Shown one piece after another: positions 49,696-59,438 of a stretch of 64,000 bases of DNA. The notes under the pieces are model-generated. The model had not been told where the DNA came from. It did not search any database and saw nothing but the letters and a program-made list of their open reading frames with translations. Position 1 is the first letter of the stretch. Every line of letters starts with the position of its first letter. The position numbers were made by a program, and so were the translations under genes. This stretch comes from an uncultured SAR116 cluster alpha proteobacterium (GTDB lineage: Bacteria; Pseudomonadota; Alphaproteobacteria; Puniceispirillales; Marisalimonadaceae), in the NCBI GenBank assembly GCA_902615025.1, contig CACMNV010000005.1, forward strand, positions 34,283 to 98,282, given 5' to 3'.

Positions 49696-50391
49696 TTATT
49701 GAATTTTTTTCCATAAAGGATCTGTCATTTGAGTTATAAAGCTTTCGTGTTGTTTTTTTTCTTGTTCAGATAGATTCATTAATTGTTCACGTGGTACAGA
49801 AAAACTTTCTTTAAAATATTTAATTTCTTTATTTTTATTAAGACCGATTAACTTATTGTCAATTAAGTTTAAGTCTTCTTGTTTTCCTGTTATTAACTTC
49901 AAATATACTTTAGATAATAGGATAGCATCTAACAAAGCTCCATGGAAATTTTGCCTAGTATTTTTTACATCCAATTTTTTGCATAAAGAATCTAAATTTA
50001 CTGTCTGTCCAGGAAATTCTTTCTTAGCTATATCTATTGTGTCAATAACAGAATTTTTAATATTGTTAAAACCGCAATCTTGTAATTCTTTATTAATAAA
50101 ATTTGTATCGAACTCTGCATTGTGAATTATTATCATATCGTCTTTAATAAAATCTAAAAATTTTTTTGCGATCTTGTTGAATGTAGGTTTTCCTATCAAA
50201 AAATCGCTAGATATTCCATGTACTTTTTGAGCAGAAATTTTTATGTTAATTTCTGGATTAATATATTCATGAAAATAGTTTTGAGTTAAAACATTATCTA
50301 TTAATTCAACAATGCCTATTTCTATTATTCTATCATAGTCAAAGTTTAAGCCTGTTGTTTCTGTATCAAGTACTAACTTTCTTTTTTTCAT
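49696..50391 (-). CDS. dnaQ: DNA polymerase III epsilon subunit
   Basis: LVLDTETTGLNFDYDRIIEIGIVEL, HNAEFDTNFI exonuclease motifs. Confidence 0.96.
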   Translation of the reverse strand: MKKRKLVLDTETTGLNFDYDRIIEIGIVELIDNVLTQNYFHEYINPEINIKISAQKVHGISSDFLIGKPTFNKIAKKFLDFIKDDMIIIHNAEFDTNFINKELQDCGFNNIKNSVIDTIDIAKKEFPGQTVNLDSLCKKLDVKNTRQNFHGALLDAILLSKVYLKLITGKQEDLNLIDNKLIGLNKNKEIKYFKESFSVPREQLMNLSEQEKKQHESFITQMTDPLWKKIQ

Positions 50392-50980
50392 TTCTTAATC
50401 TTAGTTTAAATAAAGTTTTTATTAATAGTAAAAAAACTTTTATTAGTATAATTGATCTGTTATTTGTATTAATTACATGTGGTTTATAATTCATTTTATC
50501 ACAAAAACTTAATTGCGACGCTACTATTTTTTCAAAAAGTAAATTTGAAATTTTATCTCTTTTCAAAACTCGTTCTTTTTGTGTTTTTACATTACAATGA
50601 GCTAATATAATTAAATCGTATTTTTTTTCCGATTTTGTTTCATATATCAAAGGCACATCATAAACCAATATTTTTCTATTATAATTAATGTGTTCAAATT
50701 TTTTTAATTCAATGTCCAAATAGGGATATAATAATTGTTCTAACTTTTTCTTTTCTTTTTTATTGGAGAATATAATTGTTCTTAATTTTAGCTTATCAAC
50801 ATGACTTTTTTTTACAACAGAGGGCCATATACTCTTTAATTGTTTTATAATTTCAGTTGTTCTTAAAATGTTTTTTATTTCTTTATCAGCATCAAATATT
50901 GGTACGTTAAAAAATGCAAATATATTTGCTATTGTTGTTTTTCCTGTGCCAATTGATCCTGTTATCCCTATTTTATACAT
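50366..50980 (-). CDS. coaE: dephospho-CoA kinase
   Basis: KIGITGSIGTGKTTIANIF, VPIFDADKEI, DVPLIYET. Confidence 0.95.
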   Translation of the reverse strand: MYKIGITGSIGTGKTTIANIFAFFNVPIFDADKEIKNILRTTEIIKQLKSIWPSVVKKSHVDKLKLRTIIFSNKKEKKKLEQLLYPYLDIELKKFEHINYNRKILVYDVPLIYETKSEKKYDLIILAHCNVKTQKERVLKRDKISNLLFEKIVASQLSFCDKMNYKPHVINTNNRSIILIKVFLLLIKTLFKLRLRNEKKKVST

Positions 50981-51200
50981 AATAAGCTGTGGATAGATAT
51001 ATCATTATTTAATAGTTCCCTTTTTAATTCACAACATATAAATTTTTTTTTCTGTTTATAACTTTTTCAACACATGTCTTTATTTACATTTTCTCATTCA
51101 AAACAGTTACTTGTAAAAATTATGTTTGTTGATAAATATTAATAACTATTTATAAACAAAATTATGAATACATTTACAACAAGTTTATTAATTAATAATT
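50981..51200. other. putative chromosomal replication origin (oriC)
   Basis: 220-bp AT-rich gap between divergent coaE and hemE (the hemE-linked oriC locus of alphaproteobacteria); DnaA-box-like 9-mers at 50988-50996 (TGTGGATAG), 51053-51061 (TGTTTATAA), 51064-51072 (TTTTCAACA), 51080-51088 (TTATTTACA), 51127-51135 (TGTTGATAA), 51150-51158 (TTATAAACA). Confidence 0.7.
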
Positions 51201-52214
51201 ATGATTAGTGAATTAATAAAATTAAAAAAAAGTCATATAAGACCCAAATGGTTTTTGAGACAGGCCGGGCGACATATTCCAGAGTATTTTTCTATACGAA
51301 ATAAACACAACAATTTTATTGATTTTTGTCTTAATGAAGATTCAATTGTTGATGCAACTATTCTACCTTTAAAATATTATAATATCGACGCGGCAATATT
51401 ATTTTCTGATATTTTATTATTACCTTACTTCTTAGGACAAAAAGTTACTTTTAAGGAAAATATAGGACCTGTATTAAGCAAAATAGATATAAATGAAGAG
51501 TTCATTAATAGAAAAATTGATTTAAATAACTTTATACCGATAAAAAACGCCATTTTAAAAATCAAAGAAGTGCTTCCTCCCACTAAAGATTTAATAGGGT
51601 TCTGTGGAGCACCTTGGACTTTAGCATGTTATATGTTAGATGGTGGCAGCTCAAAGGACTATGCTAAAACAAGAATTTTTTTATGGAACAATGAAGAAAT
51701 GTTTGACAAATTAATTAACAAGTTAACTAAAAGTTGTGCTGATTTTCTTGAATATCAGTATCTAGCAGGTTGTTCTGTTTTGATGATTTTCGATACATGG
51801 TCAAGTATGATTCCTGACACGTATTGGGTAAAATTTGGTATTGAACCTGTTAAATCAATAGTTGATATATTGAGAAAAAGAAATGTAAAATGTCCTATTA
51901 TTGGATTTCCATTTAAATCTGGTGAAATGCTGATCCAATATAGCTATGAGAGCCTAGTTGATGTAGTCTCAATTGATTGGAAAACAAATTTAGATTGGGC
52001 TATAAAAAATATCAATAATACTGTAATTACTCAAGGAAATTTAGATCCAGCAATACTTTCTTCTGATAATACATTAGCCATAAAAAAGGAAGTATATCGA
52101 ATATTAAGCCTGACTCAAAATAAATGTCATATTTTTAATGTTGGTCACGGTTTAACGCCTGAAGTCAAAATAAGAAATGTTAAATATGTAATTAAACTAA
52201 TAGAAGAGTATTAG
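51201..52214 (+). CDS. hemE: uroporphyrinogen decarboxylase
   Basis: RPKWFLRQAGRHIPEY, GFCGAPWTLACYMLDGGSSKDY. Confidence 0.98.
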   Translation: MISELIKLKKSHIRPKWFLRQAGRHIPEYFSIRNKHNNFIDFCLNEDSIVDATILPLKYYNIDAAILFSDILLLPYFLGQKVTFKENIGPVLSKIDINEEFINRKIDLNNFIPIKNAILKIKEVLPPTKDLIGFCGAPWTLACYMLDGGSSKDYAKTRIFLWNNEEMFDKLINKLTKSCADFLEYQYLAGCSVLMIFDTWSSMIPDTYWVKFGIEPVKSIVDILRKRNVKCPIIGFPFKSGEMLIQYSYESLVDVVSIDWKTNLDWAIKNINNTVITQGNLDPAILSSDNTLAIKKEVYRILSLTQNKCHIFNVGHGLTPEVKIRNVKYVIKLIEEY

Positions 52215-52649
52215 ATGTTGCATTTATATCTAAAGTCCTTTCATCTAATTTTCTTAATAGCATGGATGGTCTCGCTACTGTATTTACCAAGATTGTTTGT
52301 CTATCATTCAAATGTTTTCATAACAAGTTCCTCATATAACTTATTTTTATTGATGGAAAAGAGGCTGATAAAAATTATAGCGATACCTGCTATGAGTTTC
52401 ACAGCCCTTTCTGGTATTATGCTTTTAAATATTCAAGACGAATTGTTATATGAAAATTATTTTATAATAAAGATTCTAATTGTAGTATTTTGGATGATTT
52501 ATCAAGCATACTGGATCTATATCTATACAGTTCTCAAGGAAAAGAAAAACAAGAGATCACGAAATTATTATAAATTAATCAATGAAATACCAACATTTTT
52601 TATGATTATAATTATTTTACTTGTTGTGCTTAAACCTAATTTAGGTTAA
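52215..52649 (+). CDS. hemJ: protoporphyrinogen oxidase HemJ
   Basis: 144 aa, four [29 protein letters not shown] typical HemJ N-terminus; between hemE and rho. Confidence 0.93.
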
Positions 52650-53947: not shown

Positions 53948-53963
53948 AGTTTCACGTGAAACA
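53948..53963. promoter_or_regulatory. putative parS site (AGTTTCACGTGAAACA)
   Basis: 15/16 match to the canonical ParB-binding site TGTTTCACGTGAAACA; 14-bp core is a perfect palindrome; near parAB. Confidence 0.9.
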
Positions 53964-57150: not shown

Positions 57151-57797
57151 TGAGGGAAGGATTTTCTAGATTTAAAAAACATATTCATGTTTCACATGAA
57201 ACATTAGAAAAGCTAGTTATATATTTTGAGCTTTTAAATGTCTGGCAAGAGAAAATGAATTTAGTCAGTAATAATTCATTGGAAAATGCAGAAATACGAC
57301 ACTTTTTAGACTCTGCTCAATTATACGTTTTCTGCAAAAATTTAAATGGTAATATAATTGATTTTGGCACTGGCGCGGGATTTCCAGGAGCTGTTCTATC
57401 AATTTTAGGAGCTTCAAATATTTTTTTAGTAGAATCAAATAAAAAAAAATGTAACTTTTTAACAAAACTAAAAAAAGAGACCAATAGTAATTTTAATATT
57501 GTCAATTCAAGAATTGAAAATTTAGAATTTTTAAACCCGTCTTTAATTGTATCAAGGGCTTTAACATCTACCAAAAATTTAATGCTCTTTTCCATTGATC
57601 ATATGCTTAAATCAAAAAAAATAAATTCCAAGAAGGAGGCCATCAAAAAACTACCTAACCTATTGTTTTTAAAGGGAAAAAATTTTAAAGAGGAGTTAAA
57701 TTATATACCTAAAAATTTAAAAATAAAATTTCAAACTTTTCCTTCTATTACAAGTGCAGAAAGTAGAATTTTGTTGTATAATAAAAATATTTCATGA
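57150..57797 (+). CDS. rsmG: 16S rRNA (guanine(527)-N(7))-methyltransferase
   Basis: HVSHETLEKLVIYFELLNVWQEKMNLVS, IIDFGTGAGFPGAVLSI. Confidence 0.95.
   Translation: MREGFSRFKKHIHVSHETLEKLVIYFELLNVWQEKMNLVSNNSLENAEIRHFLDSAQLYVFCKNLNGNIIDFGTGAGFPGAVLSILGASNIFLVESNKKKCNFLTKLKKETNSNFNIVNSRIENLEFLNPSLIVSRALTSTKNLMLFSIDHMLKSKKINSKKEAIKKLPNLLFLKGKNFKEELNYIPKNLKIKFQTFPSITSAESRILLYNKNIS
57188..57203. promoter_or_regulatory. putative parS site within rsmG (TGTTTCACATGAAACA)
   Basis: 15/16 match to TGTTTCACGTGAAACA; encodes the VSHET segment, the same place parS lies in rsmG of many bacteria. Confidence 0.85.
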
Positions 57798-58582
57798 CTT
57801 TAACTAATACTAATATTATTGCAATAGCTAATCAAAAAGGAGGTGTTGGAAAAACAACAACTGTTATTAACCTTGCTACTGCAATGGCAGCATGTAATAA
57901 AAAAGTCTTAATTATTGATTCAGATCCTCAGGGAAATGCCAGTACTGGTTTAGGTTTAGACAAAACAGTCCTAAAAAATAGTTTTTACGATTTAATTAGA
58001 GGTGATATTTCAATTAATAAAGTAATTGTTAAAACTCAAATTCCCAATTTATGTATAATTCCTACTTCTATGGATTTAGCTGTAGTAGAACAAGAATTTG
58101 TTAATAGAGAAAAAAGAGAGGAGAGATTAAAGAAAGAAATTGAACAAATCAATAGACCTTTTGATTATATTTTAATCGATTGTCCTCCTTCTTTAGGTCT
58201 TTTAACTCTAAATGCATTAGTAGCATGTAAAAATTTATTAGTGCCTTTGCAGGTTGAGTTTTATGCTTTAGAGGGTCTAACACAACTTATGGAAACAGTT
58301 AATCAAATTAAAAATAATTATAACAATTCATTAACTTTACAAGGTATAGTTTTAACAATGTATGATAAAAGAAATAAGATATCTGAATTGGTAGCATGTG
58401 ACGTAAAAAATTTTTTTAAAGAAAAGGTTTATAAAACTATTATTCCTAGAAATGTAAAAATATCTGAAGCTCCTAGCCATGGGATACCAATTTTAATGTA
58501 TGATATTTCATGTTCAGGTTCTCAAGCTTATGCATCGCTTGCAGCAGAAATAATTAATCAGGAGAACAAGTTAAATGGCTAA
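57794..58582 (+). CDS. parA: chromosome partitioning ATPase ParA
   Basis: IIAIANQKGGVGKTTTVINLATAMA deviant Walker A; DYILIDCPPSLGLLTLNAL. Confidence 0.98.
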   Translation: MTLTNTNIIAIANQKGGVGKTTTVINLATAMAACNKKVLIIDSDPQGNASTGLGLDKTVLKNSFYDLIRGDISINKVIVKTQIPNLCIIPTSMDLAVVEQEFVNREKREERLKKEIEQINRPFDYILIDCPPSLGLLTLNALVACKNLLVPLQVEFYALEGLTQLMETVNQIKNNYNNSLTLQGIVLTMYDKRNKISELVACDVKNFFKEKVYKTIIPRNVKISEAPSHGIPILMYDISCSGSQAYASLAAEIINQENKLNG

Positions 58583-59438
58583 AATTAGTAAAAAAGAACC
58601 ATTAGGAAGAGGATTATCAAGTTTACTGGGAGAAAATATAAACATTGATAATTTAACTAATTTAAATACAAAAAACAATTTGAGTGTTATACCAATTGAT
58701 TACTTGTCGGCAGGATCCTGGCAGGTCCGAAAAAATTTTGATGATATTGAACTACATAACCTTTCACAATCTATAAAAAATAATGGAATATTTCAACCTA
58801 TAGTTGTAGTTTCGGACAAAGAAGAGAACGGTAAATACAAAATTGTAGCTGGAGAACGTCGCTGGAGAGCTGCGCAATTAGCAAATATACATGAAGTACC
58901 GGTTATTTTAAGAGATGATTTGTCATCAGATAAAATTGTAGAAATATCTTTATTAGAAAATTTAGAGAGATCAGACTTAAATCCCATAGAAGAGGCAAAA
59001 GGTTATGAGGAACTAATTAATAAGTATAATTATACTCAAGAAAAAGTTGCTAAGATTTTCAGTAAGTCAAGACCTTACATAACTAATTTTTTAAGATTAC
59101 TTTCATTACCTGATGAAATAAAATCTTTTATTGTTGATGGAAAAATTTCTGTAGGCCATGCAAGAGCTATTATAAATAGTGATAATTCATTAGAACTAGC
59201 AAGAAATATAATTAAAAAAGGCTTATCAGTTAGAGAAGTTGAAAAACTAAATAAAAAGCCAAAGAAATCAGAAAATACTTCTGAACTTCACAAATATTTA
59301 GATATTGAAAATGAATTATCTAACAAAATTGGTTTAAAAACAAAGATTTTATTTAATAAAGAGAAAAAAAATGGATCATTAACTATTAAATTTAAAAATT
59401 TAGATCAATTAGAGTATATAATAAAAAAATTTAATTAG
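58575..59438 (+). CDS. parB: chromosome partitioning protein ParB
   Basis: LGRGLSSLLGE N-terminus, YKIVAGERRWRAAQLA, ENLERSDLNPIEEAKGYEELI. Confidence 0.98.
   Translation: MAKISKKEPLGRGLSSLLGENINIDNLTNLNTKNNLSVIPIDYLSAGSWQVRKNFDDIELHNLSQSIKNNGIFQPIVVVSDKEENGKYKIVAGERRWRAAQLANIHEVPVILRDDLSSDKIVEISLLENLERSDLNPIEEAKGYEELINKYNYTQEKVAKIFSKSRPYITNFLRLLSLPDEIKSFIVDGKISVGHARAIINSDNSLELARNIIKKGLSVREVEKLNKKPKKSENTSELHKYLDIENELSNKIGLKTKILFNKEKKNGSLTIKFKNLDQLEYIIKKFN

Follow-up and report, generated by a model that had tools for sequence, protein, structure and literature searches.

Is the long gap between coaE and hemE, at positions 50981–51200 of the window (the whole 64,000-nucleotide stretch of DNA that was analyzed), the chromosomal origin of replication (oriC)? 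Caulobacter has an experimentally established origin linked to hemE, and such an origin has been predicted also for Rickettsia and Wolbachia and their relatives (PMC1914354). In the open literature no described SAR116 origin was found; a prediction for closed SAR116 genomes may already exist in subscription papers or in the DoriC tables. The window (contig C5:34283–98282) is part of a 1.52-Mb assembly of 76 contigs that is 74% complete and falls into the low-GC SAR116 clade of the Puniceispirillales, apparently into the family AAA536-G10. The low-GC SAR116 subclade, with about 30% GC, is made up of the families AAA536-G10 and GCA-002684696 (PMC8547437).

The Gap and Its Gene Neighborhood

The gap separates two divergently oriented genes and is with 82% AT considerably richer in AT than the window as a whole (roughly 72%). 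Only two gaps longer than 150 bp are found in the window between open reading frames of at least 100 amino acids, and the coaE–hemE gap is one of them. The original prediction, which had spoken of a very AT-rich gap of 220 bp, unusually long for this window, flanked by coaE (minus strand) and hemE (plus strand), is exact, also with respect to the gene names, which were recovered with Pfam and NCBIfam. The region consists of:

50981–51200, no strand: predicted chromosomal oriC, the whole coaE–hemE intergenic region (220 bp, 82% AT, densest DnaA-box cluster found)
50366–50980, minus strand: coaE, dephospho-CoA kinase, abutting the predicted origin (PF01121, TIGR00152)
49696–50391, minus strand: dnaQ-like 3′-5′ exonuclease (PF00929); the order dnaQ-coaE-gap-hemE is conserved in the family
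51201–52214, plus strand: hemE, uroporphyrinogen decarboxylase, flanking the predicted origin (PF01208, TIGR01464)
52215–52649, plus strand: UPF0093 protein (HemJ-type), conserved after hemE (PF03653)

In other SAR116 families the gene order is dnaQ-coaE-maf-ppsR-[origin]-hemE, where maf was recognized by reading the open reading frames and ppsR by PF03618. A search for PF03618 (ppsR/DUF299) gave no match in any of the 49 genomes of the window's family (f1), several of which are at least 90% complete, as compared with matches in 29 of the 32 genomes from the other families of the order. The direct contact between coaE and the gap, which had been pointed out correctly, is therefore explained by the absence of ppsR from family f1. 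The parsimonious reading is that ppsR was lost, and maf lost or relocated, in the ancestor of this family. The second flank of the Caulobacter/Rickettsia style, the DUF299/COG1806 gene (ppsR), is thus not found at the window locus, where coaE stands instead. It should be noted, however, that the second flank varies in Wolbachia-type origins too and that a DUF299 flank does not define the hemE-linked kind (PMC1914354).

Conservation of the Gap

Within the genus (ten species) the length of the gap varies only from 217 to 221 bp. Its identity to near congeners is 78%, as compared with about 50% at the fourfold-degenerate sites of hemE, and is 84% in the 80 bp adjoining hemE. A sequence-only profile of the right half of the gap has exactly one match in its own genome, at the gap (E 2e-18). 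In nine congeners hemE was found, and in all of them the profile has, at E below 1e-11, one match, which adjoins hemE. In the other genera of family f1 the gap is 241–287 bp long and its layout is similar to that in the window: several forward boxes are followed by TGTGGATAA, then after about 14–17 bp by TTATCCACA or TTATTCACA, after another 12–13 bp by a CTACTACTAC-like tract, and finally by an AT-rich stretch that leads up to hemE. At one locus, L015 (G004:C1:130725–133292), an inverted rho follows a truncated coaE close to the end of the contig; the arrangement is probably a chimera that arose in single-cell amplification.

DnaA Boxes

Boxes were scored as 9-mers with at most two mismatches to TGTGGATAA/TTATCCACA, and 1000 dinucleotide shuffles of the gap served as the null. 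Seven such boxes are present in the gap vs. 1.34 expected, a number reached in none of the 1000 shuffles, and two have at most one mismatch vs. 0.11 expected (p 0.006). A perfect consensus box is absent from the gap of the window species, in which only these two boxes come within one mismatch. The sites are:

50988–50996, plus strand: DnaA box 1, TGTGGATAG (genus consensus TGTGAATAA); 1 mismatch; T, G, T, and G invariant in 10 species
51025–51033, minus strand: DnaA box 2, TAATTCACA (TTATTCACA in several congeners); 2 mismatches; position conserved
51053–51061, plus strand: DnaA box 3, TGTTTATAA (TGTGTATAA in several congeners); 2 mismatches; supported by the genus alignment
51064–51072, minus strand: weak DnaA-box-like site TTTTCAACA, conserved in part only; 2 mismatches
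51080–51088, minus strand: weak DnaA-box-like site TTATTTACA, not conserved in congeners; 2 mismatches
51127–51135, plus strand: core DnaA box 4, TGTTGATAA; 1 mismatch; shared by all but one of 10 species, which has TGTTTATAA
51150–51158, minus strand: core DnaA box 5, TTATAAACA, facing the candidate unwinding element; 2 mismatches; most other members of the family have TTATCCACA or TTATTCACA here

The six 9-mers named in the original prediction are all there, those at 50988 and 51127 with one mismatch and those at 51053, 51064, 51080, and 51150 with two. The list had overlooked the reverse box at 51025, and two of its entries, TTATTTACA at 51080 and TTTTCAACA at 51064, proved to be poorly conserved in the genus.

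No other 220-bp stretch of equal box density was found in 498 kb of the window genome, which comprise all of contig C5 and 400 kb sampled from nine other contigs, in total about one third of the genome. In the assembly as a whole there are 17 copies of the perfect box TGTGGATAA, approximately as many as of its reversed control, and they are clustered nowhere. The gapped core TGTTGATAA-N(0–30)-TTATNNACA has a single occurrence in the assembly, and this is at the coaE–hemE gap. A better box cluster elsewhere, e.g., at dnaA, had been named as a finding that would speak against an origin at hemE; none is present upstream of dnaA (L041:2952–4328, equivalent to C5:22952–24328; TIGR00362), which is located 61 kb from the predicted origin, or in the 498 kb scanned. 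The dnaA-dnaN-recF cluster is transcribed away from the origin, and dnaA is about 60–63 kb distant from hemE in several relatives that have both genes on one contig.

The core boxes of the genus have a T at position 4, where those of others have a G. In the helix 5 motif of DnaA (GGKDHATVIHG) the equivalent of the base-contacting Thr435 of E. coli is Ala in all eight proteins of the genus and in that of G018, and it is Thr in the other SAR116 DnaA proteins that were read. Co-evolution of this Ala with the T at box position 4 was considered and rejected: in family f3 the boxes have the T, yet DnaA keeps the Thr. Since Thr is found there together with T-bearing, AT-drifted boxes, AT drift is sufficient as an explanation and co-evolution is not claimed.

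A DnaA-Trio-Like Tract and the Candidate Unwinding Element

Between core box 5 and hemE two further elements can be distinguished:

51171–51182, plus strand: DnaA-trio-like tract CATTTACAACAA, a degenerate (CWW)n copy that begins 12 bp after core box 5; supported by the genus alignment and by tract and spacer in relatives
51183–51200, no strand: candidate DNA unwinding element, AT-rich (17 of 18 bases A/T), adjoining hemE; T/TA-rich at the equivalent place in the order's other families

The tract is specific for one strand. CWWCWWC is found on the hemE strand of 35 of 43 origin flanks and on the opposite strand of only one (3.0 expected from shuffles), and the longer CWWCWWCWWC on the hemE strand of 29 and on the opposite strand of none (0.2 expected), counts that are not independent because the 43 flanks are related sequences, the pattern spanning four families. 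The spacer between box and tract is without exception 12 bp in the eight congeners whose tract is clear, and 12–13 bp in most of family f1; the published spacers of DnaA-trios peak at 10–13 bp (PMC8287927).

With the DnaA-trio/BUS (basal unwinding system) arrangement of Bacillus subtilis and numerous other bacteria the SAR116 origins share the box, the spacer of 12–13 bp, the trinucleotide-phased tract, its expected orientation, and the AT-rich neighbor (PMC8287927). They differ in that the tract is (CWW)n, i.e., 3′-GWW-5′, with the fixed central adenine of the rule often replaced by T, and in that the copy in the window is degenerate. The trinucleotides CTA, CAA, and CAT occur in comparable numbers in the tract, so that the opposite strand reads 3′-GWW-5′ and does not retain the central adenine that the published rule demands. 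In the window the tract is CAT TTA CAA CAA, one phased C being replaced by T. Box TTATAAACA (at most two mismatches) and the spacer of 12 bp are within the BUS rule, which allows up to 16 bp. At least three consecutive 3′-NAN-5′ trios are not found after core box 5 in the window gap; they are found after the homologous box in six other members of family f1. It should be noted that the published BUS search rule is passed somewhere by 46% of the gap shuffles; it is therefore uninformative for such an AT-rich gap and was left out of the evidence.

By the strict rule the tract in the window is no DnaA-trio; by position it is the same element as the tract of the relatives. The authors of the BUS survey anticipated deviant trios (PMC8287927). 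It is possible, and we offer it tentatively as a proposal with somewhat less than even chances, that the DnaA-trio of SAR116 origins is a relaxed one, with guanine alone fixed (3′-GWW-5′; (CWW)n on the hemE strand) and the central adenine free.

parS, parAB, and GC Skew

Downstream of hemE the window contains the partition genes and their putative sites:

53948–53963, no strand: parS site AGTTTCACGTGAAACA, overlapping the mnmE/trmE start codon; 1 mismatch, one of the genome's best two
57188–57203, no strand: parS site TGTTTCACATGAAACA, inside rsmG; 1 mismatch, one of the genome's best two
57794–58582, plus strand: parA (PF13614)
58575–59438, plus strand: parB (PF02195, PF17762, TIGR00180)

The parS sites are 2.8 and 6.0 kb away from the gap, beside parA and parB, and are the only two good ones in the assembly. 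In most relatives the number of parS-like sites (at most one mismatch) is likewise exactly two. Such a pair is found again across the order, and in relatives with hemE and both sites on one contig the distances from hemE are similar. The closed 2.75-Mb genome of the relative G054 stands out with 18 parS-like sites (at most one mismatch); the other relatives have two, or up to four.

It is the skew of closed relatives, not that of the window's own contig, that is decisive. In 240 contiguous kb of G054 the minimum of the cumulative GC skew is at 1,808,564, which is inside the ppsR–hemE gap (1,808,523–1,808,891), and for 250 kb of G055 its position is 873,944, which is 6.7 kb from hemE. The distance between dnaA and hemE is 87 kb in G054 and 126 kb in G055, and the minimum is at the hemE locus rather than at dnaA. 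GC skew sampled from the closed genomes G054 and G055, and less cleanly from G060, differs in sign between the two sides of the hemE locus (negative vs. positive), and in closed genomes of the order the samples reveal a second change of sign near the opposite side of the chromosome. In G060 a coarse step fit to the samples finds its best split elsewhere, owing to one sample.

The cumulative skew of the window's own 98-kb contig is lowest 231 bp past the gap (window position 51431). The skew at fourfold sites tracks the gene strand, however, and the left-right effect of side, although in the expected direction, is small and after correction for strand not significant by a rough estimate. The own-contig skew was for this reason not accepted as proof of an origin; its flip is largely an effect of gene orientation and is treated as consistent rather than decisive. 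Also discarded as skew evidence was a 727-kb contig of the family member G032, which is too noisy and has its regional minimum 33 kb from hemE.

Comparison with Known hemE-Linked Origins

Cori of Caulobacter crescentus, between hemE and the DUF299/COG1806 gene, shares with the window the hemE flank, an AT-rich gap, a cluster of mostly imperfect DnaA boxes, a parS no more than 8 kb away, and linkage to parAB (PMC1914354; PMC4468827). It differs in that the other flank in the window is coaE, ppsR being absent, and that TTAA-N7-TTAA, the CtrA site, is not found in the window gap. This site is present in 9 of the 28 gaps of family f1. No CtrA-like regulator was found in the 74% complete assembly, in which the sole OmpR-type regulator scores below the cut-off of every named response-regulator family, and CtrA-type regulation of the origin is not supported. 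CtrA sites are lacking also in some accepted predictions of hemE-linked origins (PMC1914354). An exact match to the IHF site WATCAANNNNTTR is not found in the window gap and is present in 8 of the 28 family f1 gaps, and the CcrM methylation site GANTC is present neither in the window gap nor in any of the 28 coaE–hemE gaps of the family.

The predicted origins of Rickettsia, Wolbachia, Ehrlichia, and Anaplasma have in common with the window the hemE flank, AT richness, few DnaA boxes, and a reduced genome (PMC1914354). They are longer, with about 380–620 bp vs. 220 bp (PMC1914354), and their partner gene is COG1806 or COG1253 rather than coaE.

Is There an Alternative to an Origin in the Gap?

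One could argue that the gap is simply the divergent promoter region of coaE and hemE, origin-like through its AT richness, and that the true origin is elsewhere, e.g., at dnaA. Both genes are essential and need promoters in the gap, and in AT-rich DNA 9-mers resembling DnaA boxes arise by chance more often. The box cluster, however, exceeds what shuffles of the same composition yield. Promoter-like matches are at chance level (4 vs. 4.2 in shuffles), and neither an Rfam family match nor a terminator signal was found above chance in the gap. With parS sites near the hemE locus and the skew minimum there, and not at dnaA, in G054 and G055, we regard a mere promoter region as very improbable. 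Still a little less credible is an origin that in the low-GC genus has shifted by a few kb to another site in the mnmE–parB neighborhood, the hemE locus marking the ancestral one. The skew minimum of G055, several kb off hemE, and the weak skew in the low-GC clade would fit such a shift, but a second box cluster is absent from the contig, and motifs and length of the gap are strongly conserved in the genus.

The best explanation as a whole is that the gap at 50981–51200 is the chromosomal oriC with a DnaA-array/trio-like opening mechanism, to which we assign a probability of about 0.95. The original prediction of a probable oriC is thus supported by box density, conservation, linkage to parS and parAB, the skew minima of closed relatives, and the lack of a rival cluster at dnaA or in the 498 kb scanned. 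By position it is very probably an ordinary hemE-linked alphaproteobacterial oriC with a neighborhood shortened by two genes. What appears to be new is the strand-specific (CWW)n tract by the candidate unwinding element, which in most relatives resembles a DnaA-trio without the fixed central adenine.

From this anatomy we infer where DnaA binds, where the DNA melts, and what the trio-like tract does. DnaA, encoded 61 kb away, would bind to the array of moderate and weak boxes, with the boxes at 51127 and 51150, which are nearest to the unwinding element, as anchor. A DnaA filament could then grow out from the inward-facing box at 51150 onto the phased trio-like strand 12 bp further on (51171–51182), upon which the AT-rich element beside hemE would open and the helicase would be loaded there. 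Two forks would depart, one via coaE/dnaQ and the other via hemE/rho, and ParB on the parS sites at 53.9 and 57.2 kb would segregate the new origins.

Significance

An origin placed in an uncultured, streamlined ocean lineage can be used for coverage-based (peak-to-trough) estimates of growth rates and for the correct chromosome layout of single-cell genomes. The relaxed trio, if it exists, is directly testable with purified DnaA. The aligned SAR116 origins, from genomes with less than 30% to more than 50% GC, are a natural experiment on which parts of an origin are indispensable: the core box pair, the 12–13 bp spacer, and the phased tract are kept, whereas box sequence, flanking genes, and CtrA sites vary.
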